A DNA stretch of 39,947 nt from Calditrichota bacterium (GCA_024277115.1 JAJRVW010000105.1:1-39947), one strand, 5' to 3'; counted from the first letter of the stretch, positions 19,549 to 38,188 are shown. Notes: generated by a model from the letters alone, not told the origin. Numbers and translations: made by a program.

Positions 19549-22500
19549 TTAATTTGATGTCGTGTCAGCCGGAACTGGAACCGGTTGCGGCTTTGCAGAA
19601 ACAGTTACATTTAACCCCACTGTACTTTGCGCATTGCCATCCGATACAATCACGTTTACAGAATGTGTTCCAACCTGATCATCAGCAGGCGTCCAGGTTA
19701 AGCTGCCATTGTCATCAATCGTCATCCCAGATGGCGCGCCATCGAGACTGAAAGTTAAATCATCATTATCAGGATCGCTACTGCTGTAACTTAAACTCAG
19801 AGCTGAACCCGCCTCAACGGAACCTGAAGCCGGGCCATTAATCTCAGGCTCACGATTTGTATTATTCACTGTGATGTCAAAACTTGTATTAACCGATTCC
19901 CCTGCTGCATCGGTGGCGGTTACGCTAATGCCTGTATAAGAACCGGCCTGGTCAAAGTTTGGTGTCCAACTGACGGTATTGCTTCCCGCATCAAAGGTTG
20001 CGCCATCGGGTAAGCCCGAAACGGAGACCGTTAATTTTCCGGCATCTTCCTTGTCGGCATCACTTGCCGTGATTGAAACAGTTAACGGGCTATTTTCATT
20101 CACACTTTGGGCGGCGATATTTTCAAGAACCGGCGCGCGATTTATATGGTTCACAGTTATATCAACAGGCTGTTTTAATGTAAATTCCTTATCGGCTACA
20201 GAGAAAGTTACGGTATATTTACCGGATTGATCAAATGTGGGCGTCCAGTTAAATGTTCGGGAGGCAGCATCAAAAGTTGCGCCCTCAGGCAAACCTTCCG
20301 CAGAATAAACCAACTTACCCTCGTCCTCTTTATCGGGATCGGTTGCAGCGATCAATGTAAAACTCAAGGCAACATTTCCATCAACTGTTTGTGCCGATTG
20401 CGCTTCAAAAACCGGGGTGCGGTTTACATGATTTACTGTAATTTCAACTTCTTTCTGATCCGTTGCATTTTGGGGATCTGTATTTATAAAAGTGACCTTA
20501 TATGTCCCGGACTGCTCGAAAGTTGGCGTCCAATTAAATTGTCCCCTGGTTGCATCAAAGATTGCGCCTTCGGGCAAACCGTTCGCCGAAAGAAGAAACT
20601 TACCTGCATCTTCTATGTCCGGATCAGAACCCGTGACTGAAAAGGTAAGGGCTTTGTTTTCATCAACCTTTTGCGAAGCAATCTCATTTACAACAGGAGG
20701 ACGATTAACATGGTTCACCGTAATGGTTGTCTTTTTAGTTACTGTGAATTCTGCATCGGCAACTGAAAAACTAATCTCGTAAACACCCGATTGGTCATAG
20801 CCCGGTGTCCAGCTAAATTTTGCCCCATCTAAAACCGCGCCTTTTGGCATTCCTTCTGCAGAGTAAATTAATTTCCCAGCATCCTCTTTATCCGGGTCTG
20901 TGCCGAGCAGTTCAAAAGCCAAGGCTACATTTTCATCAATAGTTTTTTGCTCAATATCCGCCAATTGCGGTGTACGGTTTATGTGGTTCACTGTAATGGA
21001 AACCGTTTTTTCATCACTAAGCCCACTTGGGTCTGTCACGATAAACGTGGCTTCCTCATATTGGCCGGATTGCTCAAAGGTTGGCATCCAGCTAAACTGT
21101 AACGAGTCCGCATTAAAACTTGCACCTTCAGGCAATTTTTGTGCTGTATATGTAAGTTTCCCGGCATCTTCAACATCCGGATCACTTCCTGCAACTGAAA
21201 ATGTTAGGCTTTTATTTTCATCGATAGTTTGGGCTGCGATTGCCTCAAGCGCCGGGGCACGGTTTACATGGTTCACAGTTATATCAAGCGAAGTAGAATC
21301 ACTTAAAGCGCCTGCAGTGAAAACAAATAAAATATTTTTATATTCGCCGGACTGGTCATAACGCGGCGTCCAGGTAAAAGTGGCCGTATTTGCATCAAAA
21401 ACAGCACCTTCCGGAAGGTTTTCCGCTGTGTAAGAAAGTTTATCCTGATCTTCCGTATCCGGGTCTGTGCCCTCCAATTTAAAAGTTAGCAGACTGTTTT
21501 CATCAACAGCAGCATTTTCCAATTCGACTAAATTTGGCTTACGGTCCACATGGGTCACAGTTAAAGTCGCCCCATCACGCATAACCAAACCAAGCGGGTC
21601 CTGAATAAGAAAATCAACCGTATAAATACCCGATTGCTCAAAAGAAGGCGTCCAACTAAAGGTACGCGTTTGGGCATTGAATACCGCGCCTTCCGGCATG
21701 TTTTCTGCGAGGTAAACAAGCTTGCCCTTGTCTTCCACGTCAGGGTCAGAGCCTTCATCAAGGGTAAAGGAAATTAACTGGTTCTCAGCCACAGCCCCAT
21801 CGGCAACTTCCGGCAAAGATGGCCCGCGGTTTACATGATTGGCTGTAATATCAAATATGGTTGAGGCCGAAAGTTTGCTCACTGTTTTTTCACTTACAGT
21901 TATTTTTATTCCCGGATATGTTCCCGACTGCTCGTAAGTAGGCGTCCAGCTAAACAATCCGGTCTCAGTATCAAACAAAGCGCCATCTGGCTGGTTTTCG
22001 ATTTCAAAATAAATTGAGTCGCCATCCTGATCAAATGCTTCGGCATTAAAAATTAATGCGTTGTTTTCATCAACAGTCATATTATAAAGTTTGGTGATAA
22101 CCGGTGGGTGATTGTGCCGTACAATGATTGTCTTTGTATCCGCGGCAATAAAAACATACACATTGTTTTTCCATGTGGCATAAACTTTAGAATCTGTTTT
22201 GTACTCACCCTCTTTATAGGGTTTTGCAGGATCGAGTACATTGATAATATCCATACGCCTCTGTGTTTCGTTGGAGAGGAAAACTGAATTACCTGATTTG
22301 AAAGCATGATAAATATACCCACCCGGATTAACTTTACTAACAAGCGTTGGGAATGCCGGGTTTTTAACATCAAAAATCCACAACCCGTCAGCCCCATTGG
22401 AAACATAGGCAAAACCATCCTCTTCGTGAACTGTTTTGGCATAGCGCATGTCGTTAAATTGGCCAAGTCGTTTTGGCTTTGATGGATTGGACACATCCAG

Positions 22501-23106
22501 AATGATTAATCCACCGCTTTTATCACCTACATATAAAGTCTGTCCGTCAAGGTAAAGAGACCAAGCCCAGCCGGGTGTATCATAGCTGCCTATTAAACGT
22601 GGCATGGCAGGGTTGGAAATTTCATAAATATTTACCCCTTTTGTTTCTTCTGCAACATACATGTATTGGGCATCAGCAATCACAAAATACGCATCGCCCT
22701 GCGTTTTTACCCGCCCAATTTCGGTCGTTGCCGCCGGGTTGGTTACATCCAAAATTAAAACACCGTCAAGCTCGCTTGAAAGATACGCATGGTTCTCGTA
22801 TACAAAACAATTGTGCGACCTGTTTTCGGTAGCAAAACCACCAATATCTTTTGGATTATTTACATCTGAAACATCCAAGATTTGCAGGCCGGACCAAATA
22901 TTGGTCATATAAAGTTTTTGATTGGAGAAAAAAATATTTTTAATACCATCACGCGATTGTTCACCGCTGGCAAGCTTTCCGGGAAGCGCCTCAGCAACAT
23001 ATTCCGCACTCGCTTTTTGACTGAAGGAACTCGTGGGCAGTAGAACACTAAGCAGACATAAAAGAACTGCAACTTTGAGAACATTCTTTCTTTTTGGAAA
23101 AAACAT
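19549..23106 (-). CDS. Giant secreted LVIVD-propeller and Ig-like repeat protein, 1185 aa
   Basis: Signal peptide at 1-29 (ends SSFSQ). Residues about 40-335 are LVIVD-type propeller repeats: LQILDVSDVNNPKDIGGF, VLILDVTNPAATTEIGRV, VNIYEISNPAMPRLIGSY, LIILDVSNPSKPKRLGQF, LWIFDVKNPAFPTLVSKV and a degenerate sixth. From about 340 to 1165 come nine Ig/cadherin-like (He_PIG type) domains of about 92 residues, each with DPDxEDxGKL, LPEGAxFDA, WTPxFxQSGxY and ITVNHVNRxP. The tail is PQPVPVPADTTSN, with no T9SS sorting domain. The DPD motifs suggest calcium binding. Likely a surface or extracellular adhesin or scaffold. AGGAGC precedes the ATG; a strong terminator follows. Confidence 0.9.
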   Translation of the reverse strand: MFFPKRKNVLKVAVLLCLLSVLLPTSSFSQKASAEYVAEALPGKLASGEQSRDGIKNIFFSNQKLYMTNIWSGLQILDVSDVNNPKDIGGFATENRSHNCFVYENHAYLSSELDGVLILDVTNPAATTEIGRVKTQGDAYFVIADAQYMYVAEETKGVNIYEISNPAMPRLIGSYDTPGWAWSLYLDGQTLYVGDKSGGLIILDVSNPSKPKRLGQFNDMRYAKTVHEEDGFAYVSNGADGLWIFDVKNPAFPTLVSKVNPGGYIYHAFKSGNSVFLSNETQRRMDIINVLDPAKPYKEGEYKTDSKVYATWKNNVYVFIAADTKTIIVRHNHPPVITKLYNMTVDENNALIFNAEAFDQDGDSIYFEIENQPDGALFDTETGLFSWTPTYEQSGTYPGIKITVSEKTVSKLSASTIFDITANHVNRGPSLPEVADGAVAENQLISFTLDEGSDPDVEDKGKLVYLAENMPEGAVFNAQTRTFSWTPSFEQSGIYTVDFLIQDPLGLVMRDGATLTVTHVDRKPNLVELENAAVDENSLLTFKLEGTDPDTEDQDKLSYTAENLPEGAVFDANTATFTWTPRYDQSGEYKNILFVFTAGALSDSTSLDITVNHVNRAPALEAIAAQTIDENKSLTFSVAGSDPDVEDAGKLTYTAQKLPEGASFNADSLQFSWMPTFEQSGQYEEATFIVTDPSGLSDEKTVSITVNHINRTPQLADIEQKTIDENVALAFELLGTDPDKEDAGKLIYSAEGMPKGAVLDGAKFSWTPGYDQSGVYEISFSVADAEFTVTKKTTITVNHVNRPPVVNEIASQKVDENKALTFSVTGSDPDIEDAGKFLLSANGLPEGAIFDATRGQFNWTPTFEQSGTYKVTFINTDPQNATDQKEVEITVNHVNRTPVFEAQSAQTVDGNVALSFTLIAATDPDKEDEGKLVYSAEGLPEGATFDAASRTFNWTPTFDQSGKYTVTFSVADKEFTLKQPVDITVNHINRAPVLENIAAQSVNENSPLTVSITASDADKEDAGKLTVSVSGLPDGATFDAGSNTVSWTPNFDQAGSYTGISVTATDAAGESVNTSFDITVNNTNREPEINGPASGSVEAGSALSLSYSSSDPDNDDLTFSLDGAPSGMTIDDNGSLTWTPADDQVGTHSVNVIVSDGNAQSTVGLNVTVSAKPQPVPVPADTTSN
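19600..22080. repeat. Nine tandem DNA repeats of about 280 bp encoding Ig-like domains
   Basis: The repeat unit recurs about every 270-290 bases across this span, each ending with the motif for NHVNRxP and beginning with DPDxED. Copies are diverged in DNA but clearly homologous, so expansion by duplication and slow drift is likely; recombination between copies could change repeat number. Confidence 0.75.
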
Positions 23107-25329: not shown

Positions 25330-27186
25330 TTATCGCAATAACATCATTTTGCGGCTAAAGATACGTTTATCTGTCTGTAAGCGCACATAATAAATCCCGC
25401 TGGAAAGTCCGCGCCCATTAAAACGCACAGAATATTCCCCGGCCTCCTGCACACTTTTTTCCAAGGTGCGTATATGCCGGCCCTGTAAATCAAAAATATT
25501 TAGTTGTACTTTTGACGAATGATCAAGACGGTAGGAAATTACTGTGGAAGGGTTAAAGGGATTAGGATAATTGGGTAGTAAAGCCGTTTGGTTTGGTATG
25601 ATTGGCGATGCTGAAATATTTAATTCGCCAATTATATTTATTTGGCCGGAATAATCTTCCTGGAGCAAGCGATAAAAATACTCTTTACCGCCAACAATAT
25701 CCGCATCAACAAAAACATATTCATTGACATAATTGCTATTGCCTGCGCCTCTTAGGGCAAGATCATTATTGTAGTGGGCGATTTGTTCATAGGACACTGA
25801 AAATTCATCACGCCGTTCTATGATAAAGCCTAAGTTTTCAATTTCGGATGCTGTCTTCCAGACCAGTTTTATGCCGGATTCTTCCTGGGCACCTTTAAAT
25901 GTAAGCAGCATCACAGGCAGGGCTTGGTCTAATTGTGTGTTATTATTGGTTTGCCCGGTTGTCTGCGTCGAAGGTGTATTCCAGGTAAAAGAGCGATAGG
26001 TATCGCCCGTTCCGGATAGCTGTAAACTAAGGCCTTCACTGTCAGTACCGTCTTCCATCAGACCAATATCGCTACTGGTTAATCCCGAGGCCGGGCCATC
26101 GACAGCCACAAAACTGCCTTCATAACTTAAAAACTGGATCACATTATTTTGGTAGACGAGCGCAAAACCGGCCATCCCATCCAGCAATCCCGCTATATTT
26201 TTTGAAATCAGTGTAAAGCCATCCTGCGTTGTACCCGTAGTAAAGGTGCTGCCAACATGGTCGGCGTATTGCAAACCGGTGCTGCCATCATACAAAATTA
26301 AATGCAGGTTTACGAAATCTGTAAAACTATCCGGGACAATCAACTCCACAAACTCGTTGGCATCAGCGCCATGGTCGTCATAGTGGAATTCATTGATCCA
26401 AAAGCGTGGATCGGTGATTGGTTTCTTCATCAACCAGTCCATTACCGACCAAAGGAATGGCCAATCGGAGCCATTATCCGAGTAAGCATCGGCAAAATTA
26501 TTACCATCGCGGTCACTGTCTTCTTCCGTTTCGGGATGTGGGCCGGAAAAGAAAACACGTCCGGCGCCATAACTAAAATTAACGATCGCCGGCAAGTTAT
26601 ACCAGGCATCCCATGTTGCAAGTGTATCCATTTGCTGCCCGGGCTTAGGCTCATAAACCGGCCCACCATAGTACAGGATCGATTCGTTTCCACCGCTATA
26701 GGCATTGATCGGGTTGTTCATGTTCATGGTCACGTCGGTCATGACATAAACAGGCCATGGCGCGATTGTGTCAATTGCCCCACGTGCAAAACCATTAAAC
26801 AGCTCCAATTGATAATCATAAATCCCACCTTCCCATTCGATGGAGTCGCACGCAAAATAGGAGCCGGCACACATGCCCATGTAATAGCCGCCACCGTTGA
26901 TCAAATCGCGGATACTTTGCAGGCCATTTGTATCGATGGCCACTTTATAATAATAAGCGTCCCCACCAGGAAAAAAGATGCCCTCATACAAATCTTTTAA
27001 AACGACTGTGTTTACATCCGTTGGCGAAACCTGTTCGTGGGCTATTCCTTTCCAATCACAAAACTTTTCAAACGAAGTAATGCCCTCGGGCCAGGTTCCG
27101 GGACCATTATAAATTGCGACTTGAGCGCCATTTACGGCAAATAGGTTTCCCGCTAAAATAAGAATTAGCAATAGACGATAGATCAT
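25330..27186 (-). CDS. Secreted class-I glutamine-amidotransferase-like (BPL_N) protein with T9SS tail
   Basis: Signal peptide 1-20. Residues about 21-250 resemble the BPL_N/GATase1-like domain: FFPGGDAYYY, GGGYYMGMCAGSYFACDSIE with a nucleophile-elbow Cys106, and a late SGPHPE carrying His and Glu, so a Cys-His-Glu triad is plausible. About 270-400 is a lamin-tail-like beta region (FWINEFHYDDHGADANEFVE). About 430-530 is a fibronectin-like domain. The last about 75 residues are a T9SS type A sorting domain (NYPNPFNPSTVISY...GIYYVRLQT). An extracellular hydrolase or amidase is the guess; the substrate is unknown. No Shine-Dalgarno is evident. Confidence 0.82.
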   Translation of the reverse strand: MIYRLLLILILAGNLFAVNGAQVAIYNGPGTWPEGITSFEKFCDWKGIAHEQVSPTDVNTVVLKDLYEGIFFPGGDAYYYKVAIDTNGLQSIRDLINGGGYYMGMCAGSYFACDSIEWEGGIYDYQLELFNGFARGAIDTIAPWPVYVMTDVTMNMNNPINAYSGGNESILYYGGPVYEPKPGQQMDTLATWDAWYNLPAIVNFSYGAGRVFFSGPHPETEEDSDRDGNNFADAYSDNGSDWPFLWSVMDWLMKKPITDPRFWINEFHYDDHGADANEFVELIVPDSFTDFVNLHLILYDGSTGLQYADHVGSTFTTGTTQDGFTLISKNIAGLLDGMAGFALVYQNNVIQFLSYEGSFVAVDGPASGLTSSDIGLMEDGTDSEGLSLQLSGTGDTYRSFTWNTPSTQTTGQTNNNTQLDQALPVMLLTFKGAQEESGIKLVWKTASEIENLGFIIERRDEFSVSYEQIAHYNNDLALRGAGNSNYVNEYVFVDADIVGGKEYFYRLLQEDYSGQINIIGELNISASPIIPNQTALLPNYPNPFNPSTVISYRLDHSSKVQLNIFDLQGRHIRTLEKSVQEAGEYSVRFNGRGLSSGIYYVRLQTDKRIFSRKMMLLR

Positions 27187-27691: not shown

Positions 27692-29839
27692 TTAGCGCAC
27701 GTACAACATTTTGCGTGTCTCGATAAAATCACCTGACCTGAGCTGATAAAAATAAACACCGCTGGACAGGGTAGAACCATCAAAACGAATTGTGTGGACA
27801 CCCGCCTCAATAAATCCGTTGACCAGGGTTTTTACTTTTATGCCGAGCATGTCAAAAACGACTAAGCTTACCGAACTACTTTTGGGCAGGCTATAGCCGA
27901 TAACTGTACTCGGGTTAAACGGATTAGGAAAGTTTTGCTCCAGCTTAAAGTTGGCAGGTATAATTTGTGGGGCTGCTTCAATTGAAAAATCACGGCCACT
28001 TTCTTTAAGCCAAATATCCGATACAGCCACGGGAACAGAGCCATCGCCCTCAATGCGAATTTCAATTTTTCCATCCACAAAACTTTCAGCAGGGATGTCA
28101 AAATAATCTATTTCCTGCCCGTTCTTTTTAAATCCGGTCAACTCATAAACGGGCACGCCGTCAATAACTAATTGTACCTGCCCCAAATTTTCGGTAATAA
28201 AATAGGCGGCTGCAATTTTATACGACGAGCCCGGCTCAAGACCCGAAATTGAATAAATAACCCGTTCATCATCCTGTACAAAGGAAATACCTTTCTCTTT
28301 TTGTGCTTTCCCCTGAATTAATTTAATCGCCTTGGTTACGTCTTCATTTCCACAATCCACATGATAATAAAGGGGCAAATAAAAAGATGTTTTTTGGACA
28401 ATGACCTCATCCGAATATGCCGACGAAACCTCAAGCTCAAAACTATAATTTCCGGGCGCAACCTGGGCATTGTTTTGGTCCCTTCGTTGCCATGTCAGTA
28501 TGTTTGTGCCCGAAGCGTTCCATATTTTTTCACTCTCAAATATTTTTTTATTTCCCCGCGAGAAAACCGTAAAACGTGTTTCGGCAAAATCAGTGATTTT
28601 AAACTCCGCTTCCAGGCGGGCATTGTTTTGTGCAATATTTAGACGGGAATCCTGTAAACTTAGCCCGAGCTTTAATCGCTCCACGCCGCTTTCCTCATCC
28701 CAGGTTTGCAAAGCAAAAAGCTGATCAAAACCGGCCCAGTATTTTCCTTCGCCTTCAATCTCCACCATACCAAATGGGATGGCCAAATCGTTTATACCTT
28801 TGTTTTGCGGTAAGGAAGTTTTATCGAGCATATCCAGATTGGCGCTTAATTTAAACAAATCGCCATTCACCGCGTCCGCAAGATAAATTTGCCCAAAATG
28901 ATCTGTTTCCACCTTGGAAAAAGTCTGGTTATTTTTAGCCTTTATTTGCACAATTTCTTTCAGCTCGCCATTCAATTCTTCAAATAAAGTTACATTTTTA
29001 GCATAGCTGTCTACCACATAAAGCTGATTTGTATTTACCCCGTCCCAGCGTCCAACTGCAATGGAAACCGGCCACCTGAATCCTTTATATGTTTTGGAAA
29101 GGCTCGCTGCGTTTTCACCGATTTGCCATTTGCCGATTGTGTTTTTTGAGGCGTCGGCCACAAATAAAAAATCATCCGAACTATTAAAAGGTGTCCCGCC
29201 ATCGTTATAAGCCAGAGAGGTGGGCTCGCTAATGCCATCGATAGTAAAGTTTTGAACTAGTTTTGCTTCGGCCCCTTTTCCTACAACTTCAAAAACAATA
29301 ATGCGTGATTTTCCTTTTTCGGAAACAAATATTTTACCAAGCGGGCTTACGACAATTTCTCCCGGCCCGATTATCTGGTCATAGCTTTTCAACGATCCGT
29401 TTAATGCACCATAAAGCAACCTGTTCCAGCGGCTGTCGCTAACAATCTGCAATAAAGTTGATTCCACAAACAGGGCATTTTTATCATATTTTGCCCGATA
29501 GTATGTGGCCGAATATTGCGGTAAACCAAACAAGTCGCGCTTTAAAATAGTCCGGGCAACATCGCGGTTAAATGTAGTGATGCCATTTTCCACATCAAAG
29601 GGTAGTATTTCAAAAGTTTGGCCGATTTTTATTGAAGGCGCTGTTTCCTGCCAAAAATTATCTGCTGTTTTTTTTAGGGATTTAACCTTTTGGGGTGTGA
29701 TACTTTTTAAACCGCCTTTAATTATTTTCGCCCGGTGCGCTCCATACGTCCCCGCTATGTCCGAAGAGAACACGGACGATGCTACACTTAACAAAATTAT
29801 AAAGGTAAAAACTATGGGACGGTAAATTATTTTTTTCAT
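27692..29839 (-). CDS. Secreted beta-propeller (NHL-like) protein with T9SS tail, 715 aa
   Basis: Signal peptide 1-26. Residues about 130-380 show propeller-like blades (GEIVVSPLGKIFVSEKGKSR, EPTSLAYND, NQLYVVDSYAKNVTLFEEL, GQIYLADAVNGDLFKLS). A beta region with FlgD-like GNYSFELEV follows at about 420-500, then a carbohydrate-binding-like jelly roll at about 500-620. The C-terminus is a T9SS type A domain (NFPNPFNPSTVIGY ... GVYFYQLRSGDFIETRKML). Last gene of the nine-gene cluster, 15 bases after the DUF3570 gene. Surface-exposed; it may bind a substrate for the redox or metal proteins upstream. Start has AAGGA. Confidence 0.85.
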   Translation of the reverse strand: MKKIIYRPIVFTFIILLSVASSVFSSDIAGTYGAHRAKIIKGGLKSITPQKVKSLKKTADNFWQETAPSIKIGQTFEILPFDVENGITTFNRDVARTILKRDLFGLPQYSATYYRAKYDKNALFVESTLLQIVSDSRWNRLLYGALNGSLKSYDQIIGPGEIVVSPLGKIFVSEKGKSRIIVFEVVGKGAEAKLVQNFTIDGISEPTSLAYNDGGTPFNSSDDFLFVADASKNTIGKWQIGENAASLSKTYKGFRWPVSIAVGRWDGVNTNQLYVVDSYAKNVTLFEELNGELKEIVQIKAKNNQTFSKVETDHFGQIYLADAVNGDLFKLSANLDMLDKTSLPQNKGINDLAIPFGMVEIEGEGKYWAGFDQLFALQTWDEESGVERLKLGLSLQDSRLNIAQNNARLEAEFKITDFAETRFTVFSRGNKKIFESEKIWNASGTNILTWQRRDQNNAQVAPGNYSFELEVSSAYSDEVIVQKTSFYLPLYYHVDCGNEDVTKAIKLIQGKAQKEKGISFVQDDERVIYSISGLEPGSSYKIAAAYFITENLGQVQLVIDGVPVYELTGFKKNGQEIDYFDIPAESFVDGKIEIRIEGDGSVPVAVSDIWLKESGRDFSIEAAPQIIPANFKLEQNFPNPFNPSTVIGYSLPKSSSVSLVVFDMLGIKVKTLVNGFIEAGVHTIRFDGSTLSSGVYFYQLRSGDFIETRKMLYVR

Positions 29840-29854
29840 CGGTTTTCCTTCATA

Positions 29855-30979
29855 TTAAATCGCAAAATTTAAACTGGCCTGTACAATGTTTGCAGAGAAA
29901 TCCAGGTCATTTGTGTATCGCAGGTACATTACCTCAAAAGATGATTTTTCCAGAAATTCCCAACCCGGGTTGCCTTTGGCCAAACCACGGAATAAATAAC
30001 GCAAATTGAGGCCATAACTGTTGGATTGAAAAGGATTGAGTTTATAATCCGCCGTGCGCAGTTGTTGGCCTGAGTTTGGGGAAAGGTTGTATTTTTCCCT
30101 GTAAAAGGAAGCGCCGCCTTGCGTATAATAGCGATAATTAAAACCCGTAATAAAATCATCAAAAACATATTTATTAAAACGCACTTCGGCCGTATGCGAT
30201 TTAACCTGCCAGTCATCAAAATAATAACGGTAACTACCGATAACAGAGGCGTTAACCATATTTAGAAACTGGCTTATTTTCCCCGTGACAGCCTGCCGTA
30301 TGCGCTGGTTTGGATGATTTTCTTTTATAGTCTGAAAAACATTATTGGCGTCAAAAACCACAACCCGGCGGTATGGATCGCTTAAGTATCCGTCCATTTT
30401 CATAAAATCATAACTCAGGTTAAAAACGGCTGATTTTGATAAAACCTGCGAAAAGTTTAAGGCGCCGGTAATAACAGCTTTGTCTTTTCTTATCAATTGG
30501 CCGTCTTTCAAAAGTTCGCCCACTTTATCGTCATTATATTGGGCACGCACGGTAAGGGTGGTATTATTCTGAAAAAAGTCGCCACTTACGGTAAAAATAA
30601 GCGCATTGGAAAGATAATCAATTTCCTGGCTTCGATAGGCGTTTAACGCAAAAGTGGCCGCCCCAAAAGATTGCTCCACGCCCACAATAACCTGCCCGCG
30701 GTTTTTCTCAAAAACCTCGTCCTTTTTACGGGCCGGACGGGTTGCTCCGCTGGAGCCATCCACCGGCGGCAGGGAAACTTTATCCAGCTCAATATCCAGT
30801 AAAACGGCCGTTCCTTTGATTAATTTTTTGGCCAGCGAAAAGGATGTGGTCATAACATTATTATTGCCGCTGTCATTAAAAAAATAGGTGGTGTAACTGA
30901 TCTTATCCTGTGCGACAGAATTTTGCATGGTTAAAAAAACAAGTAGAATAAACACGTACATTTTTTGAGATTTTTTCAC
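29855..30979 (-). CDS. DUF3570 outer-membrane beta-barrel protein
   Basis: Family of unknown function usually encoded next to DUF4266 lipoproteins. Signal peptide, then a long series of amphipathic strands (DKISYTTYFFNDSGNNNVMT, SFSLAKKLIKGTAVLLDIEL...FEVMYLRYTNDLDF) ending in an aromatic strand QASLNFAI, so an integral outer-membrane barrel is likely. I choose GTG 30977-30979 (VKKSQKMYVF) with AAGGA five bases upstream; ATG 30985 would leave no spacing. About 374 aa. A terminator-like hairpin (31003-31071) separates it from the DUF4266 gene. Confidence 0.85.
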   Translation of the reverse strand: MKKSQKMYVFILLVFLTMQNSVAQDKISYTTYFFNDSGNNNVMTTSFSLAKKLIKGTAVLLDIELDKVSLPPVDGSSGATRPARKKDEVFEKNRGQVIVGVEQSFGAATFALNAYRSQEIDYLSNALIFTVSGDFFQNNTTLTVRAQYNDDKVGELLKDGQLIRKDKAVITGALNFSQVLSKSAVFNLSYDFMKMDGYLSDPYRRVVVFDANNVFQTIKENHPNQRIRQAVTGKISQFLNMVNASVIGSYRYYFDDWQVKSHTAEVRFNKYVFDDFITGFNYRYYTQGGASFYREKYNLSPNSGQQLRTADYKLNPFQSNSYGLNLRYLFRGLAKGNPGWEFLEKSSFEVMYLRYTNDLDFSANIVQASLNFAI

Positions 30980-31002
30980 AAACATCCTTTTTTTATTTCT
31001 CT

Positions 31003-31071
31003 AAAAAAAATTCGGCGTTTGGCCGGTGATTGCCAGGGAGCAAGGTCAAACCGGCCAGTTAAGCCGCCGAA
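31003..31071 (-). terminator. Terminator or attenuator between DUF4266 and DUF3570 genes
   Basis: On the minus strand two paired blocks, TTCGGCG/CGCCGAA (31011-31017 with 31065-31071) and GGCCGGT/ACCGGCC (31021-31027 with 31050-31056), close a long hairpin followed by eight T (31003-31010). It begins eight bases after the DUF4266 stop. Partial read-through would express the lipoprotein above the barrel gene. Confidence 0.75.
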
Positions 31072-31078
31072 AATTAAA

Positions 31079-31294
31079 TTATTTTGCGCAACCGCAGCCA
31101 CCGCCAATTCCACCGCCACCACCCATACTGCCTTCGCGAGAGGAGAAAAATTTCTCATCCAGCTTTTGCTTGGCAAACTGGCTTTGCGGCTCCATGATGG
31201 GGTCGGCAAGTTTCTCTTTTTCCCACGGTTTGATGGAAACGCATGAAGCATTCATAAAAACCGCAAAAAATATCAACAAAATCATTTTTTTCAT
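31079..31294 (-). CDS. DUF4266 small lipoprotein with GGGCGC tail
   Basis: 71-aa protein: signal MKKMILLIFFAVFMNASC with a lipoprotein-like Cys at 18, the family core VSIKPWEKEKLADPIM, then a Gly-rich end GGGGGIGGGCGCAK. The C-terminal CGC dipeptide-like pair and Gly stretch are diagnostic of DUF4266. ATG 31294 has AAAGG six bases upstream; an upstream TTG is less likely. Function unknown. It is genetically tied to DUF3570 and thioredoxins, so the Cys pair could be a metal or redox site. Confidence 0.88.
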   Translation of the reverse strand: MKKMILLIFFAVFMNASCVSIKPWEKEKLADPIMEPQSQFAKQKLDEKFFSSREGSMGGGGGIGGGCGCAK

Positions 31295-31375
31295 CTGCAA
31301 CCTTTTAATTTTTACTTCTCAGAATGTCCCCGTTTTTTGAGAAAAATAAACAAGCTTAAAAATTTGAGCCTTTTC

Positions 31376-31458
31376 AACTCACCCCTATGCAGTTTCTGCT
31401 GGTTTTTAAGTTTTTCAAGTCCCCTCTCTTTAAAAGAGAGGGGATTTAGGGGAGAGTT
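31376..31458. repeat. Nested palindromic intergenic element
   Basis: Outer arms AACTCACCCCTA (31376-31387) and TAGGGGAGAGTT (31447-31458) pair at 11 of 12 positions. Inside, CCCCTCTCTTT and AAAGAGAGGGG (31421-31443) form a perfect 11-bp stem around one base. The pattern matches a dispersed noncoding repeat type seen between genes in many bacteria. It interrupts the nine-gene cluster between TlpA and DUF4266 and could also stop transcription. Confidence 0.65.
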
Positions 31459-31549
31459 GTTTCCCAAAGAAGGATCAACCCTAAACTCTTTGTTCTCTAA
31501 AGTTTATACAAACTGTTTTGTAAATATCGCGGGACATTTAAATTAATTT

Positions 31550-32053
31550 TTACTTATGATCGATCAAACCACGAATGGCGAACTCAAGCTTTTTCATACT
31601 TTTCTCATTATAACCGGAATGGATGTATTGGATTTTACCATACTGGTCCACCAGGTAAGCCGTGGGCATTACCGGCACATTGTACTTTTCCACGGTTGTT
31701 TTGCCCGCATCAAAAACAGCGGTGATATCAATCTCAAACGTATTTAAAAATTTTAGCGCGTTCTCTTTGTCATCATCAATATTTATGGCGATAACTTCCA
31801 GGCCTTTATATTTATCATGCAGCCCTGCCAGGTAAGGCAATGATTTTTTACAGGGGGCACACCAGCTTGCCCAAAAATCAATCAGGACTACTTTGCCCCG
31901 TAATTTTGAAAGCGAAACAGGACCGGAGCCGTCTAATTTTTCCAAATTAAAATCCGGTGCAGATTGCCCGATTTGGTCTTTTGTACTGGCAAACAGCAAA
32001 CCAATCCCCAAAAGTGCAATAAAAAAGCTGTGATAAAATTTATTGTAATGCAT
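31550..32053 (-). CDS. TlpA-family thioredoxin-like protein
   Basis: Periplasmic thiol-disulfide oxidoreductase. N-terminal signal or anchor (HSFFIALLGIGLLFAS), then a thioredoxin fold with SAPDFNLEKLDG, the active site FWASWCAPCKKSLP (Cys65, Cys68) and the cis-Pro loop VPVMPTAYLVD. I choose ATG 32053 with GGGAG six bases upstream. The gene starts 10 bases after the diheme lipoprotein gene, so the two are coupled. It may reduce the CXXCH cysteines of that neighbour or the Cys pair of the DUF4266 protein. Confidence 0.92.
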   Translation of the reverse strand: MHYNKFYHSFFIALLGIGLLFASTKDQIGQSAPDFNLEKLDGSGPVSLSKLRGKVVLIDFWASWCAPCKKSLPYLAGLHDKYKGLEVIAINIDDDKENALKFLNTFEIDITAVFDAGKTTVEKYNVPVMPTAYLVDQYGKIQYIHSGYNEKSMKKLEFAIRGLIDHK

Positions 32054-32063
32054 GAGCAACTCC

Positions 32064-34292
32064 CTAATTTTCTACAGAACTTGAATACTGGGTTCCCATA
32101 TCGACCCATTCAATTATTCGCAATAATCCCCGATTGGCCGGATCGAACGGATCAATAAACGTACCTGTTTTTTTCCAAAGCGCCGTGTGGTCATAACTTG
32201 AAGGATTAAAATCTTCGTTGGAATCATCGTTAAGCTGGCGGTTGTATAAAACCCACAGCAGGGGCGATCGCCGCGCGCCGTCATCGGTAACATAATCGCG
32301 GGTATCACCCGATGGCGTTTGATATTGGCCGGTTTCTGTCAAGGTCTCGTAAACGGAGGTCGTCTCATTCCCATTATCGCCCTGTACGGTTCTGTCTGTG
32401 GCGGCCATTTCAAGATTTAACCCACCGGCAGGCGCGCCGCTTGCATGGCAAGAGATACATTTGGAATCGAAAACCGCCTGCACGGAATTGCTTCGAGATG
32501 GCCTTGTGCGGTCATAAAAATCGATGGTGTCTGCATGTGCCGCCTGATGGATCATCACATTTTCGGCATTGTTAAAACCCGATTTGTAAAATACGCCCGT
32601 CGCGCCGTTTAGAATCTTTTCATCCGGCTGGATATTCAGGTCGTTGATAACTTTATCTTTATTATGCGAATCATGGCAGCCGGTACACAAACGTTTTTCG
32701 CCGGGCATAACGTGTGTCCAGGAACGCTGACTGACCAACATCATGGCGTTTTCGTCCAAAGTTTGCAAATGCAGGGAAATATTGGCAGGCACTTCAATCG
32801 AAAAGGAGCCATCGCTGCGAATAGCGCCATAGCCAACCACCCGTTGTTTTTCCAGGTTGGTATTGCCCAAATCACCACCACGCTTGCTACGGTTTCGGGG
32901 CATGGAAACAGCCGCCAAAACCCGTACATATTTGGCCTGGCCGATGCTGCCATCTTTATTTATATGATTTTCGTCCGGGCGCATCAAGCGGTCTTCGGGG
33001 TCGCGGTGATAAACATTGCCATCAAAAAAGATGCCTGTTTGCTGATTGGCGGCCAACCCGTTTTCAATATTTTTATCCATCGGCACAACCTGCGGGATGC
33101 CACCTGGCAGTTCATCACGCGGTAAAACAGGTACGGCGTCAATCTCGTTAAACTGCGGATCGTTATAAATTAAACGCACGTTATTACCATCTTTGTCCAT
33201 TATATACAGGCCATAATCCACTTGCCGCTCTTTGCCATTTTCAAGCGGGATGGGCGAAATGGAAACAATAATTTTTTCCTTACGTGTGGATGAAGCGCTG
33301 TGATCAATTATAGGATGTGGCGAACGGTAAAGGGCGTTGGCATTTTCCGTGTCGTTAAAAGGAACGTCGCTTGGGGTAATAATGTTGATCTCATCATCCC
33401 CGCGTGAAATATCTTTTATAGCGATGGCCCCGCCTTCAAAAGGTGAATTACGTTCCATCAACGAGCAGATAATCCCGCCATCGGCCAATTCGCGCGGATC
33501 GAGATAAACACGGCTACCGCTACCACGGGGAAAGTGGTTTCCATATAAAACGAAAGGCCGTGAACCATCAGGATTTATGGTAAAGATAGAAAATTTATTG
33601 GGATCGCCTAAATGCTCCCAGCGACTGTAATACACTTTCCCGCTGGAATGGACCATCGGGTTGGTATCGTGGCTTTGATTAAAAGAAATTTGTCGGATAT
33701 TTGTTAAACGGCCATCGGCGGTACGGTCGGCAACATGTAATAAAGGTGATTCACGCCGTTCGTATTCATCCACAATTTGCGGGCGTGTCGAGGCAAATAA
33801 AATCTGGCCATTGGGCAAATAGATCGGGTCCATATCATGGCCGACAACCTGATCGGTAAGCTGGAGCAGGTTGGTACCGTCGATATTCATCTCATATAAA
33901 TGCCAGTTGCTATCCCTGTTACGGCGCATGGAAAAAAGTATTTTTTTACCGTCAAAAGATATTTCAGGATCAGCGGCGTGGCCATAGCGGTCCTCGCGGG
34001 TTTGCCCCTGGCGTGTGTACTGTTTTGTAAGGTTGCGCACATTGCCCTGTGGGGAAATGGGGTCTAAAATATAAATATCGGTTCCCGGATAATACTCGTC
34101 CACATTACTGCGCATGGCATTGCTGCGGTTATTAAAACGGCTGTTTTCTTTAACAAAAACAAGGGCAGCCTGACCCGATTTTTCCATAATAACATCGGCG
34201 GGCGGATTGCCACAGGCGTTTATTAAAACCTGTGCCAGTATGAACAAAGCTATTTTGGGAATGAATGAACCGAGATATTTTGATCTTTTCAC
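32064..34292 (-). CDS. Diheme lipoprotein, hydrazine-synthase-alpha-like (HzsA middle domain) propeller
   Basis: Exported lipoprotein: hydrophobic signal ending LINAC. About 60-420 is a PD40/TolB-like propeller (DPEISFDGKKILFSMRRNRD, MDPIYLPNGQILFASTRPQI, DTNPMVHSSGKVYYSRW). A middle domain follows, like HzsA alpha subunits. The C-terminal part has two c-type heme motifs, CTGCH (about 536) and CISCH (about 612). This resembles proteins annotated as hydrazine synthase subunits, but the organism need not be anammox. GTG 34290-34292 with GAGG five bases upstream is my start. Likely transfers electrons or binds a small substrate in the periplasm; followed 10 bases later by TlpA. Confidence 0.8.
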   Translation of the reverse strand: MKRSKYLGSFIPKIALFILAQVLINACGNPPADVIMEKSGQAALVFVKENSRFNNRSNAMRSNVDEYYPGTDIYILDPISPQGNVRNLTKQYTRQGQTREDRYGHAADPEISFDGKKILFSMRRNRDSNWHLYEMNIDGTNLLQLTDQVVGHDMDPIYLPNGQILFASTRPQIVDEYERRESPLLHVADRTADGRLTNIRQISFNQSHDTNPMVHSSGKVYYSRWEHLGDPNKFSIFTINPDGSRPFVLYGNHFPRGSGSRVYLDPRELADGGIICSLMERNSPFEGGAIAIKDISRGDDEINIITPSDVPFNDTENANALYRSPHPIIDHSASSTRKEKIIVSISPIPLENGKERQVDYGLYIMDKDGNNVRLIYNDPQFNEIDAVPVLPRDELPGGIPQVVPMDKNIENGLAANQQTGIFFDGNVYHRDPEDRLMRPDENHINKDGSIGQAKYVRVLAAVSMPRNRSKRGGDLGNTNLEKQRVVGYGAIRSDGSFSIEVPANISLHLQTLDENAMMLVSQRSWTHVMPGEKRLCTGCHDSHNKDKVINDLNIQPDEKILNGATGVFYKSGFNNAENVMIHQAAHADTIDFYDRTRPSRSNSVQAVFDSKCISCHASGAPAGGLNLEMAATDRTVQGDNGNETTSVYETLTETGQYQTPSGDTRDYVTDDGARRSPLLWVLYNRQLNDDSNEDFNPSSYDHTALWKKTGTFIDPFDPANRGLLRIIEWVDMGTQYSSSVEN

Positions 34293-34374
34293 ATAAACCT
34301 CAATTTTAATTTGATACAAAATTAATGGCACTTTTTAATAATTACAGGCTCAGCTTGGTAATTTGGCCGATGAG

Positions 34375-34932
34375 CTAATAAAAGAACTCCAGGTTAATTG
34401 TAAAAACAAGGTTATGGGCAAAAAAGGATTCTTTGTCATTAAAGCGCTGTTTTAAAATCTGGTCCCGCAAATCGTAACGCAGGCCAATTTTCCGTGAGCC
34501 AAAAAGCGTATCAAAATAAATACGGTTCCCTATACCGGCCACAAGCGCAAATTTACTTTGACCACCCTGGTTTATCCCGGCCACACCGGCCGTAAAATAA
34601 GGCAGGCTGGTCCACATTTTGGGATCGTATCCATAAACAAATTCATAAACAAGCAAACGCGTGTTTTCAAATAACCGGGCATTCGCGACCGTTTTCAATA
34701 CGTCCGATTCGATGCTGCTTATCCCGAAAGATGCCTCCACAAAATGGCGGCCTTGCTTTAAATAATGGTTGTAGCGAAAAGCGGCATACGGGTTTGTCCC
34801 AAACCCCGATGCGGCATAAATACCTGTGGAAATTGTAAAACCATTATTATACTTAATTTGGGCGCTTGCCTTATCCGGGCCAATAACAAAACCCGTCCAT
34901 AAAAAAATCATTACATAAAAAAAATTACGCAC
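34375..34932 (-). CDS. Small outer-membrane beta-barrel, 185 aa
   Basis: Signal peptide to about ASAQ, then regular amphipathic strands (YNNGFTISTGIYAASGFGTN, AAFRYNHYLKQGRHFVEASF) and an aromatic last strand FTINLEFFY. GTG 34930-34932 has GGGAG five bases upstream. Probably an 8-stranded barrel. It lies directly ahead of the diheme lipoprotein gene. Function unknown. Confidence 0.75.
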   Translation of the reverse strand: MRNFFYVMIFLWTGFVIGPDKASAQIKYNNGFTISTGIYAASGFGTNPYAAFRYNHYLKQGRHFVEASFGISSIESDVLKTVANARLFENTRLLVYEFVYGYDPKMWTSLPYFTAGVAGINQGGQSKFALVAGIGNRIYFDTLFGSRKIGLRYDLRDQILKQRFNDKESFFAHNLVFTINLEFFY

Positions 34933-35002
34933 ATGCACTCCCTGCATCTTTTAAAATTGTTCCAACAGACCTACAAACGAACAGCGCAGGTTCATTAATA
35001 AG

Positions 35003-35185
35003 TTATTCTTTTGTCCCGTAAAACAGGTTTTTCAGGCGGTCAAAAAAGCGTTGTATAAAATTGCGTTTTGGTTTCTCCACCGCGGTAAGGTTTCTTACAA
35101 CCGTATAAAATTGAAAATCCAATTCATCATTATTCGTTTTGTTTTCCTGATCTTGTTCCATTATTGGTTCCTCAATAGTTCTCAT
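35003..35185 (-). CDS. Small charged protein, 60 aa
   Basis: Hydrophilic N-terminus rich in Glu, Gln and Asn and a basic amphipathic C-terminal helix (NFIQRFFDRLKNLFYGTKE). No signal peptide, so probably cytosolic or peripheral on the inner membrane. AAGGATGG precedes the ATG. Sits between two barrel genes of the nine-gene cluster; function unknown. Confidence 0.6.
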   Translation of the reverse strand: MRTIEEPIMEQDQENKTNNDELDFQFYTVVRNLTAVEKPKRNFIQRFFDRLKNLFYGTKE

Positions 35186-35199
35186 TTTTTTACCATCCT

Positions 35200-35706
35200 T
35201 TAGTTAAAAACAAAAATTACACCGATTGTTACTTCCTGAAAAATTAATAACTCCTCACTGGCATCACGCTTACTTTTGATATTTGTTAAAAATTGATTTA
35301 CCCCGAGCCGTAGGCCAAAATCATCTGTAAAATAAAAACGGAGTCCGCCGCCAAAATTTAATCCCAGGCTGGACAAGGTCTTATTACCGATCGTTGTAGA
35401 TGGCACCGTGAGTAAAAGCCCAACACCCACGCCGCCATACGGGATCATATTTCCTTTTTTTGCTAAATTGAAAAGCAGGTTTACATTTAGCGGGTACAAA
35501 TCCGCTGTTTCGCCTATAACCTGTGCCGCCGAGAACTCCAGGTTAAAAGCTTTGTAGTTCATCGAAGCATCAAGTCCAAATTGACCGCTGCCATCCATAA
35601 AACCTGTGTGCGGCGAAAGCTCGAAGCGCACATTATCTTTATCTTGTGCGGATGCCGCGCTAATTAGCAGGCAGGCAAGCAGGCATGTTTTAATAAAGCC
35701 GGACAT
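35200..35706 (-). CDS. Outer-membrane beta-barrel, 168 aa
   Basis: I choose ATG 35704-35706 (MSGFIKTCLLACLLISAASA) because GGGAGG lies five bases upstream. The longer frame to 35802 only overlaps the previous gene. Signal peptide, then strands such as VRFELSPHTGFMDGSGQFGL and LSSLGLNFGGGLRFYFTDDF, ending FQEVTIGVIFVFN. OmpX/OmpW-like barrel by pattern. The start lies inside the 3' end of the preceding barrel gene (17-base overlap), so translation is coupled. Confidence 0.78.
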   Translation of the reverse strand: MSGFIKTCLLACLLISAASAQDKDNVRFELSPHTGFMDGSGQFGLDASMNYKAFNLEFSAAQVIGETADLYPLNVNLLFNLAKKGNMIPYGGVGVGLLLTVPSTTIGNKTLSSLGLNFGGGLRFYFTDDFGLRLGVNQFLTNIKSKRDASEELLIFQEVTIGVIFVFN

Positions 35707-36262
35707 TGATGCCTCCCGCAATTGTATAAACCCGGCGCAGATTGGAAAAATCGTAAAAACCAAATTGTGGGCGAATAAATAATGCAGCCTGTTTATAAAC
35801 ATTTTTGGAAAAATTTAACGCCATGCTCGCCATATAAAAACCTTCGTTTGCCCCTGCGATAGTTTTACTGCCCAATGCGCCCAATTGAAAAGTGTAAGCG
35901 CTTCTTTTAAAAAACTTCCAGCCAAAGCCAACAACCGAGCGGATGCTGAAAGTGAAAAAATTATTTGTAAGGGGATAGCTCAATGTAAAAACAAAATCAT
36001 TCACCTTGCTGGCGATTAAATCCGTACCGCCGGGCGTGTTTACTTTTTGATTGATATTATTGTCCTGAAATACCAAACCGGCAACTACACCCGATTGAAA
36101 TTTATAATTAAGCCCCAGATTAAAACCGGGGGCCGGACCATAATTTATATCCTTGCCGTATTGATCAAAGGCCAGTGCAGCGGAAATGTTTACTTGCGCC
36201 CAACCGGTCACGATAAAAAGAGAAAGAATAAAAATTATTTTAATGGTTTGTGTCACGCTCAT
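35690..36262 (-). CDS. Outer-membrane beta-barrel, 190 aa, first gene of the cluster
   Basis: Signal peptide (TIKIIFILSLFIVTGWAQ), then alternating strands (GPAPGFNLGLNYKFQSGVVA) and a terminal aromatic strand AGGINVRLY. ATG 36262 abuts AAGG, so GTG 36256 (spacing six) may be the real start. Resembles PorT/OmpW-type small barrels. It leads the nine-gene leftward cluster; its promoter must lie in 36263-36523, where I saw no clear box. Confidence 0.72.
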   Translation of the reverse strand: MSVTQTIKIIFILSLFIVTGWAQVNISAALAFDQYGKDINYGPAPGFNLGLNYKFQSGVVAGLVFQDNNINQKVNTPGGTDLIASKVNDFVFTLSYPLTNNFFTFSIRSVVGFGWKFFKRSAYTFQLGALGSKTIAGANEGFYMASMALNFSKNVYKQAALFIRPQFGFYDFSNLRRVYTIAGGINVRLY

Positions 36263-36523: not shown

Positions 36524-38188
36524 CTAGGGGACGAACAGCATTTTATTAATTTGGGTAAACTGTCCGGCTGTCAGTTTATAAAAATATACACCACCGCCAA
36601 TATTACTGGCATTAAAAGTCACCCGATAATTTCCGGCTTGCTGAACTTGCTGCACTAAAGTTGCTACCTCACGGCCAAGCAGATCAAAAACTTGCAGCTT
36701 TACATCGCCTGTATTTTTCAATGTGTAATATATTGTTGTTTGCGGGTTAAACGGATTTGGATAGTTGTTCAATTTAAATGCATCGGGTTTCTGAACCTGA
36801 GGATCATTAATCGAAGTAACCGGCCGGGTGCCTTTAAACAGGAACATATAAATCCCATGGTTTAATACATTGCGCGTATCCGCATAAGATGATTTATCAA
36901 GTATAATTGTCTCAATTTTTTCCAATTCTTTTGTAGCCGAATCATCAAAATAAGATGAGTGTTCAGGATCAATTAAATAAATTTGCACAGAATCGGCAAT
37001 AAAAGGGAGGCTGCTTATTGAAAGGTTTAACTCATTTACCGCATCTTGTTTGTTCCAAACCATCACACCAACTGTCGAGTCGTCCATGGCGGCCATTGCA
37101 TCAAGTTTTGTGTCGCCTACACTTACATCAACGCCCCAGTAAGGCATTTTGGCGTACATTTTAAACAGGTTAAATTTTGCTTTTGGCGTATTATCTGTTG
37201 TAATCAGGCCGTTGTATTTCCACTTGTCTGCTAATTCACCATTATTTGTAATTGTTTTATTAAAAAGCGCCAGGCGTGGCATTTCATTCAACATAAATTT
37301 AAAAGAACTGGCAAACCAGGCAGCACATTCTACTTTATCATATTTGCTGCCTTGCCCTGGGTCAAGCTCATAGGAGAATTCATTGAGGTGAATTTCCACG
37401 CTATCCATCCCACGCTGGTTCAGTTCATCTAAAATATCCAGATAACGGCTGTGGTACTTACTGCCTTCATCCTTAAATCCGTCTCTATTATCCTGTGCGT
37501 GATAGGAGAGAAAGTTGACCGGTAAATTATTTTCAATAATGAAGTCCAGGAAAGGACCAATCCAGTTTTTGGGGCTCTCGGCCAATGCGGGCCCACCAAC
37601 CATAGCATCGGGCACCGCACGACGGATACCTTTTACGGCATATTTATACATCTCAAAATAGTCCGCTTTACTGCCGGTAAAAAAATCACTGTAATCGGGT
37701 TCGTTCCAAACTTCAAATGAGTTTACACCATATTTTTCATTAAAATGTTTTGCCCACTGGTAATTAAATTCTTCCCAGGCGTCATAATTTTCTGGTGGCT
37801 TAAAAGCGCTGCTTGCATTAAGCGCTTCGGGCATATAACAATATCCAAGATTAATCTGCGCGCCTTCTTCAATAACAGGTTTTATCCAGTCATTATCCAC
37901 AGTAGAAAAATCATATGTAAAATTTGGGTATGTGCCCTTTACAATATCCAGGGAATTTCCAAAAATACCGCCAAAAAATGAACGGGCGCTTAATGGTGGA
38001 AACATGCGAACCATATTACTATTAATTTCCCTTAACCTGTTTTGTGGCGCACGGTTACCGGAGCGAAAGGCATCAAATATCTTGCGCATATTGGGATCTT
38101 TCTTTTGCGTGGCATCGATGGTTACATCTGTTGCATAAATCATCAGTGGAAAGAAAGAGAGTAGTAAAAGTGTGAATAATTTTTTCAT
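36524..38188 (-). CDS. Secreted GH39-like glycoside hydrolase with T9SS tail, 554 aa
   Basis: Signal peptide 1-19. Residues about 50-370 form a TIM barrel of GH clan A: FEVWNEPDYS has the acid/base Glu163 and IHLNEFSYE the nucleophile Glu270, and YHAQDNRD and GGPALAESP are typical of family 39 xylosidases and relatives. A beta domain follows (about 370-465). The C-terminus is a T9SS type A sorting domain (NNYPNPFNPQTTIYY...GVYFYKLTAGQ). Predicted to act on extracellular polysaccharide at the cell surface. Alternatives are other clan-A families. Stand-alone transcription unit with its own terminator. Confidence 0.87.
   Translation of the reverse strand: MKKLFTLLLLSFFPLMIYATDVTIDATQKKDPNMRKIFDAFRSGNRAPQNRLREINSNMVRMFPPLSARSFFGGIFGNSLDIVKGTYPNFTYDFSTVDNDWIKPVIEEGAQINLGYCYMPEALNASSAFKPPENYDAWEEFNYQWAKHFNEKYGVNSFEVWNEPDYSDFFTGSKADYFEMYKYAVKGIRRAVPDAMVGGPALAESPKNWIGPFLDFIIENNLPVNFLSYHAQDNRDGFKDEGSKYHSRYLDILDELNQRGMDSVEIHLNEFSYELDPGQGSKYDKVECAAWFASSFKFMLNEMPRLALFNKTITNNGELADKWKYNGLITTDNTPKAKFNLFKMYAKMPYWGVDVSVGDTKLDAMAAMDDSTVGVMVWNKQDAVNELNLSISSLPFIADSVQIYLIDPEHSSYFDDSATKELEKIETIILDKSSYADTRNVLNHGIYMFLFKGTRPVTSINDPQVQKPDAFKLNNYPNPFNPQTTIYYTLKNTGDVKLQVFDLLGREVATLVQQVQQAGNYRVTFNASNIGGGVYFYKLTAGQFTQINKMLFVP

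Follow-up and report, generated by a model that had tools for sequence, protein, structure and literature searches.

The window analysed here is the whole stretch of 39,947 nucleotides from a Calditrichota bacterium (GCA_024277115.1 JAJRVW010000105.1:1-39947). A direct read of this stretch revealed nine leftward open reading frames (ORFs) at positions 27692-36262, precisely where a sequence-only reading had placed nine envelope genes. Pfam matches (OMP_b-brl for the second barrel, HZS_alpha with PD40, AhpC-TSA, DUF4266, DUF3570, and NHL with Por_Secre_tail) confirmed the families named in that reading. The locus comprises the following features, listed in the order of the genes:

35690..36262, minus strand: gene A, small predicted outer-membrane barrel of 190 aa, fast-evolving (ORF; relatives at the same place 18-40% identical)
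35200..35706, minus strand: gene B, small outer-membrane beta-barrel with signal peptide (OMP_b-brl, 6.7e-8; orthologues 45-80% identical)
35003..35185, minus strand: charged small ORF of 60 aa (45% identical ORF at the same place in the sister genome G001)
34375..34947, minus strand: gene D, conserved envelope protein (sub-threshold match to TIGR04565; orthologues 39-82% identical)
32064..34331, minus strand: HzsA-like diheme c-type cytochrome lipoprotein of 755 aa (PF18582, 77.8 bits; orthologues 58-85% identical)
31550..32053, minus strand: TlpA/ResA-type thioredoxin with WASWCAPCK (AhpC-TSA, 1.3e-24)
31310..31540, no strand: dispersed repeat in the spacer between the TlpA and DUF4266 genes (search of its own genome)
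31079..31294, minus strand: DUF4266 lipoprotein with the C-terminus GIGGGCGCAK, a CXC tail (PF14086, 8.4e-19)
29855..30985, minus strand: DUF3570 outer-membrane barrel (PF12094, 2.8e-44)
27692..29839, minus strand: surface propeller protein, NHL/lactonase-like propeller with a T9SS type A C-terminal signal (TIGR04183, NHL, Por_Secre_tail)

Three small barrels had been proposed for the locus, and only the second of them, gene B, has a Pfam barrel match of its own. Its start is most likely at 35706, where a signal peptide (MSGFIKTCLL...) begins, resulting in an overlap of 17 nt with gene A. As comparison of the profile of gene B with D and A gave no mutual match, genes A and D are likely, rather than established, to encode barrels. 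Three of seven members of the gene A family matched OMP_b-brl in Pfam; the gene evolves so fast that it fell below detection in several cluster genomes. Gene D, whose family carries an invariant NQGGQ motif and gave no Pfam match in 11 members, probably also encodes a small barrel. The 60-aa ORF, which has a basic amphipathic C-terminus, had no match in other cluster loci and was found in this genus only; G028 and G038 carry a long N-terminal extension on gene D in its place.

The last gene of the cluster encodes the propeller protein, whose orthologues are 34-58% identical. Its score against TIGR04183 was 37.4 bits compared with a cut-off of 23, and the T9SS translocon protein SprA was encoded in all 11 cluster genomes checked. 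Because of this type A tail and the presence of SprA, export of the propeller protein to the cell surface is likely.

Conservation and distribution of the cluster

The gene order barrel A, barrel B, barrel D, HzsA-like, (TlpA), DUF4266, DUF3570, propeller was identical in 13 other genomes over whatever part of the neighbourhood their contigs covered. This repeated order puts the arrangement far beyond chance, and the cluster is a real conserved syntenic unit. It forms a fixed block of about eight genes carried by uncultured bacteria, namely Calditrichota and relatives labelled Ignavibacteria. The flanking genes differ between these 13 genomes: the same 486-aa gene (glycogen-synthase-like by eye) lies downstream of the cluster in G025 and G028, and other genes were found elsewhere. 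A GH39-like protein with a T9SS tail encoded upstream at 36524-38188 was rejected as a member, since it occupies the same place in G001 only.

Co-occurrence of the cluster families across genomes, which the earlier reading had named as its own test, was found when the survey was run. HzsA-like orthologues of at least 60% identity and DUF4266 occurred in exactly the same nine of 60 relatives. A further survey covered 80 relatives of a metagenome-assembled genome (MAG) labelled Ignavibacteria. Each of the two genes was found in five of them, and four genomes had both; the HzsA-like gene found alone (G065) extends beyond the end of its contig, and the DUF4266 gene found alone (G062) sits in a plain thioredoxin-DUF4266-DUF3570 cluster. 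The named carriers are Calditrichota, Ignavibacteria and Chlorobi MAGs and one labelled Deltaproteobacteria, a distribution that represents a lower bound, as genome contigs were scanned by two short peptide patterns. Pairwise distances between cluster components correlate with r values of 0.79-0.94, which may reflect joint inheritance; plain species descent fits these values too.

The gaps between the genes are short except for those between TlpA and DUF4266 (about 250 bp), between DUF4266 and DUF3570 (93 bp) and around gene D, which is preceded by 55 bp and followed by 43 bp, counted up to the first start in the HzsA-like ORF. The largest gap might suggest two independently regulated halves, a possibility raised with the earlier reading. 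It holds a dispersed repeat with a palindrome-containing core of about 84 bp, which the genome contains about 30 times. This joint measures about 20 bp in G001 if the likely DUF4266 start is used, and the maximal ORFs even overlap. Because the spacer is a dispersed repeat and the joint is short in relatives, the gap is not an old operon boundary, and the idea of two halves was rejected. One longer relative of the repeat was observed at C145.

The thioredoxin gene is absent between the HzsA-like and DUF4266 genes in G032, G061, G071 and G075, that is in four of the 13 informative clusters. TlpA is therefore an accessory component, neither essential nor a core member. In G060, an unrelated gene is inserted between the HzsA-like and TlpA genes, and the TlpA of G036 (L051 4014-4502) carries WCTPS in place of WCxPC and has thus lost one active-site cysteine. 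The role previously assigned to TlpA, keeping the cysteines of an electron chain reduced, cannot be an essential one given these losses.

The HzsA-like diheme lipoprotein

The protein encoded at 32064-34331 consists of a TolB-like propeller, an HZS_alpha domain and a C-terminal haem domain, an architecture which it shares, together with two CXXCH motifs, with the hydrazine synthase subunit HzsA (PDB 5c2v) and its distant homologues. It matched 5c2v_A with an E-value of 1.2e-19, and with 1.7e-25 when a profile was used, the similarity extending over the propeller, the middle region and the C-terminal haem domain. The CXXCH motifs are located at residues 549-553 (C549-H553) and 625-629 (C625-H629), and both of them as well as the lipobox Cys40 are invariant in eight orthologues. 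Together with the PF18582 and PD40 matches, these residues bear out the original description of the protein as HzsA-like, with two haem motifs and a propeller. In the genome of the window (G000), it is the only HZS_alpha protein found. A second, different HZS_alpha protein of 808-828 aa is encoded outside the cluster in G025 (C32), G027 (C44) and G030 (C622).

Several features separate the protein from HzsA. Against the HZS alpha equivalog model NF052339, it scored 135.5 bits compared with a cut-off of 800. HzsA uses His587 as a zinc ligand and Tyr591 as the ligand of its haem iron (PMC12607021, PMC12758564). The former corresponds to H553, while Tyr591, the ligand of haem alpha-I, aligns to N557, a position that is variable among the orthologues. 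The HzsA zinc ligand Cys303 aligns to an invariant histidine, H266, but only weakly, as this stretch scores 1.6-3.4 bits. Near the first haem, H553 and H556 are both invariant, the latter being a candidate ligand. Unlike HzsA, the protein is a lipoprotein and is paired with a predicted flavin barrel system; no second cytochrome, of the HZS beta/gamma type or any other, was found in the cluster, where the HzsA-like protein alone carries CXXCH. The AlphaFold model of the protein (pLDDT 48) is too poor to judge the distance from haem to flavin.

Membership in the hydrazine synthases was rejected on the basis of the low equivalog score, the missing tyrosine and the lack of a cluster-encoded partner cytochrome. 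With these three features, nothing points to the small nitrogen species that had been suggested as a possible cargo of the system. Homologues of HZS-alpha from bacteria other than anammox organisms have likewise been judged not to be hydrazine synthases (PMC12758564). With the cluster, one group of orphan HzsA-like proteins gains a genomic setting unrelated to anammox.

The DUF3570 protein and its predicted flavinylation

Flavinylation of DUF3570 proteins and their association with DUF4266 and thioredoxin have been published under the name 'DsbD systems' (eLife 2021, PMC8238504), a paper which does not use the word 'barrel' and was the sole description of DUF4266/DUF3570 found in our literature search. 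In the DUF3570 protein of the window, SGAT at residues 79-82 represents the predicted FMN attachment site. A single [S/T]GA[S/T] motif was present at the same place in all ten readable DUF3570 proteins of HzsA-type loci, in the context P-[PA]-[VI]-x-x-x-[ST]-G-A-[ST]-R-P; shuffled DUF3570 sequences of the same composition contain [S/T]GA[S/T] anywhere in 2-4% of cases. Every complete DUF4266 copy of the cluster ends with the GGCGCAK tail.

The cluster resembles the DsbD systems (PMC8238504) in its adjacent DUF3570 and DUF4266 genes, the [S/T]GA[S/T] motif, the CXC tail and a thioredoxin-like gene, and also in that the genomes encode DsbD (10 of 10 cluster genomes checked) and the flavin transferase ApbE. 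It differs from them in four respects. ApbE was not found in the HzsA-type cluster but is encoded in trans in 13 of 14 cluster genomes, the exception being G038 (88% complete). The published family has two flavinylation motifs rather than one, the thioredoxin here is of the TlpA/ResA type and dispensable, and an HzsA-like diheme lipoprotein, small barrels and a T9SS propeller protein are added. The uncharacterised DUF3570/DUF4266 flavinylation system thereby gains a diheme cytochrome as a second partner that recurs consistently. In G027 and G030, plain clusters that include ApbE and lack an HzsA-like gene exist as separate second loci, and a lipoprotein-like ApbE is encoded at C83 of G000.

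An AlphaFold2 model of DUF3570 built from seven sequences (pLDDT 80, pTM 0.69) contained 16 long strands, and the protein is predicted to form a 16-stranded outer-membrane barrel. The best Foldseek match of this model was MtrB (6r2q_B, TMq 0.61), followed by TonB-dependent receptors (0.60). MtrB is a much larger barrel of 26 strands. In view of this size difference and the slight lead, the match supports only the assignment as an outer-membrane barrel and nothing beyond. The flavinylation motif is located in a low-confidence loop (73-91) between strands 3 and 4. With both ends of the barrel in the periplasm, as in the standard topology of outer-membrane proteins, this loop would lie on the outer side or be folded into the lumen. 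An outward position would not fit easily with a periplasmic ApbE unless the flavin were attached before folding. Our literature search found no description of a flavinylated outer-membrane barrel.

Possible functions of the cluster

Taken together, we propose with moderate confidence that the genes of the cluster together form a single redox module of the outer membrane, and that it is a variant of the DUF3570/DUF4266/thioredoxin flavinylation systems in which ApbE is located outside the cluster and an HzsA-like diheme lipoprotein stands in its stead. Such a module probably moves electrons at the cell surface rather than making hydrazine. The earlier reading had electrons, or a small nitrogen or metal species, passing from a periplasmic diheme protein through barrel proteins. 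Electron transfer at the outer membrane is still the best-supported idea, but the chain as written was wrong and had overlooked the published flavinylation of DUF3570.

In the mechanism that we infer, DUF3570 would receive its FMN from ApbE while it is still in the periplasm and not yet folded into a barrel, and the diheme lipoprotein, held at the outer membrane, would exchange electrons with this flavin. The DUF4266 CXC lipoprotein, together with TlpA where present, may feed or reset the redox state, and the barrel could have its surface partner in the propeller exported by the T9SS. In this way, electrons would cross the outer membrane or travel along it, towards an external partner or away from one, with no need for a multihaem cytochrome wire. 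The porin-cytochrome conduits (MtrCAB) likewise combine an outer-membrane barrel with redox cofactors and a surface partner, and MtrB was the best Foldseek match; the cluster differs from them in having no multihaem cytochrome, 16 predicted strands and a predicted covalent FMN on the barrel itself. The specific proposal that a covalent flavin on an outer-membrane barrel and a diheme lipoprotein form a transmembrane electron conduit lacking such a wire is put forward tentatively, and we regard it as unlikely. If the predicted FMN does sit on an outer-membrane barrel, this would mean flavin-based electron passage at the outer membrane for Gram-negative cells.

Alternatively, catalysis might reside in the HzsA-like protein itself, as a diheme enzyme whose small-molecule substrate is something other than NO plus ammonium; electrons or maturation would then come from the flavinylated barrel, DUF4266 and TlpA, and the barrels would let the substrate through the outer membrane. 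The conserved HZS_alpha domain, the invariant H553 and H556 near the first haem and the alignment of H266 with the zinc ligand would agree with an enzyme, and it has been suggested that HZS-like proteins belong to a broader family of enzymes that use other substrates (PMC10732223). However, the residue at the Tyr591 position is variable, the cluster contains no HZS beta/gamma-type partner cytochrome and the Cys303 alignment is weak, so that we consider this explanation possible but on the unlikely side.

Reduction and uptake of metal, with the barrel flavin and the CXC lipoprotein reducing and binding iron or copper at the outer membrane for import, appears distinctly improbable. Metal might bind to the CXC tail of DUF4266 and enter through the barrels, and the ferrous iron transporter VIT1 occurs in 25 of the published DUF3570 clusters (PMC8238504), but neither a metal transporter nor a TonB-dependent receptor was found in the cluster or among the other scanned genes of the window.

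The joint occurrence of T9SS cargo, several barrels and TlpA might also indicate a structural or assembly cluster of co-exported envelope proteins, whose redox proteins serve only disulfide or haem maturation of the surface propeller. This is very improbable: the propeller protein is almost without cysteines, and several relatives have lost TlpA yet kept the diheme protein, DUF4266 and DUF3570. A true hydrazine synthase or anammox-like nitrogen chemistry, to which the PF18582 and 5c2v matches could be taken to point, has practically no probability in view of the equivalog score, the absent tyrosine, the lack of any other cytochrome in the cluster and the published judgement on non-anammox homologues.

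Outside the cluster, the window also encodes a BPL_N-type (biotin-protein-ligase N-terminal) protein with a T9SS tail at 25330-27186 and, at 19549-23106, a protein of 1185 aa with LVIVD repeats and many Ig/cadherin-like domains.
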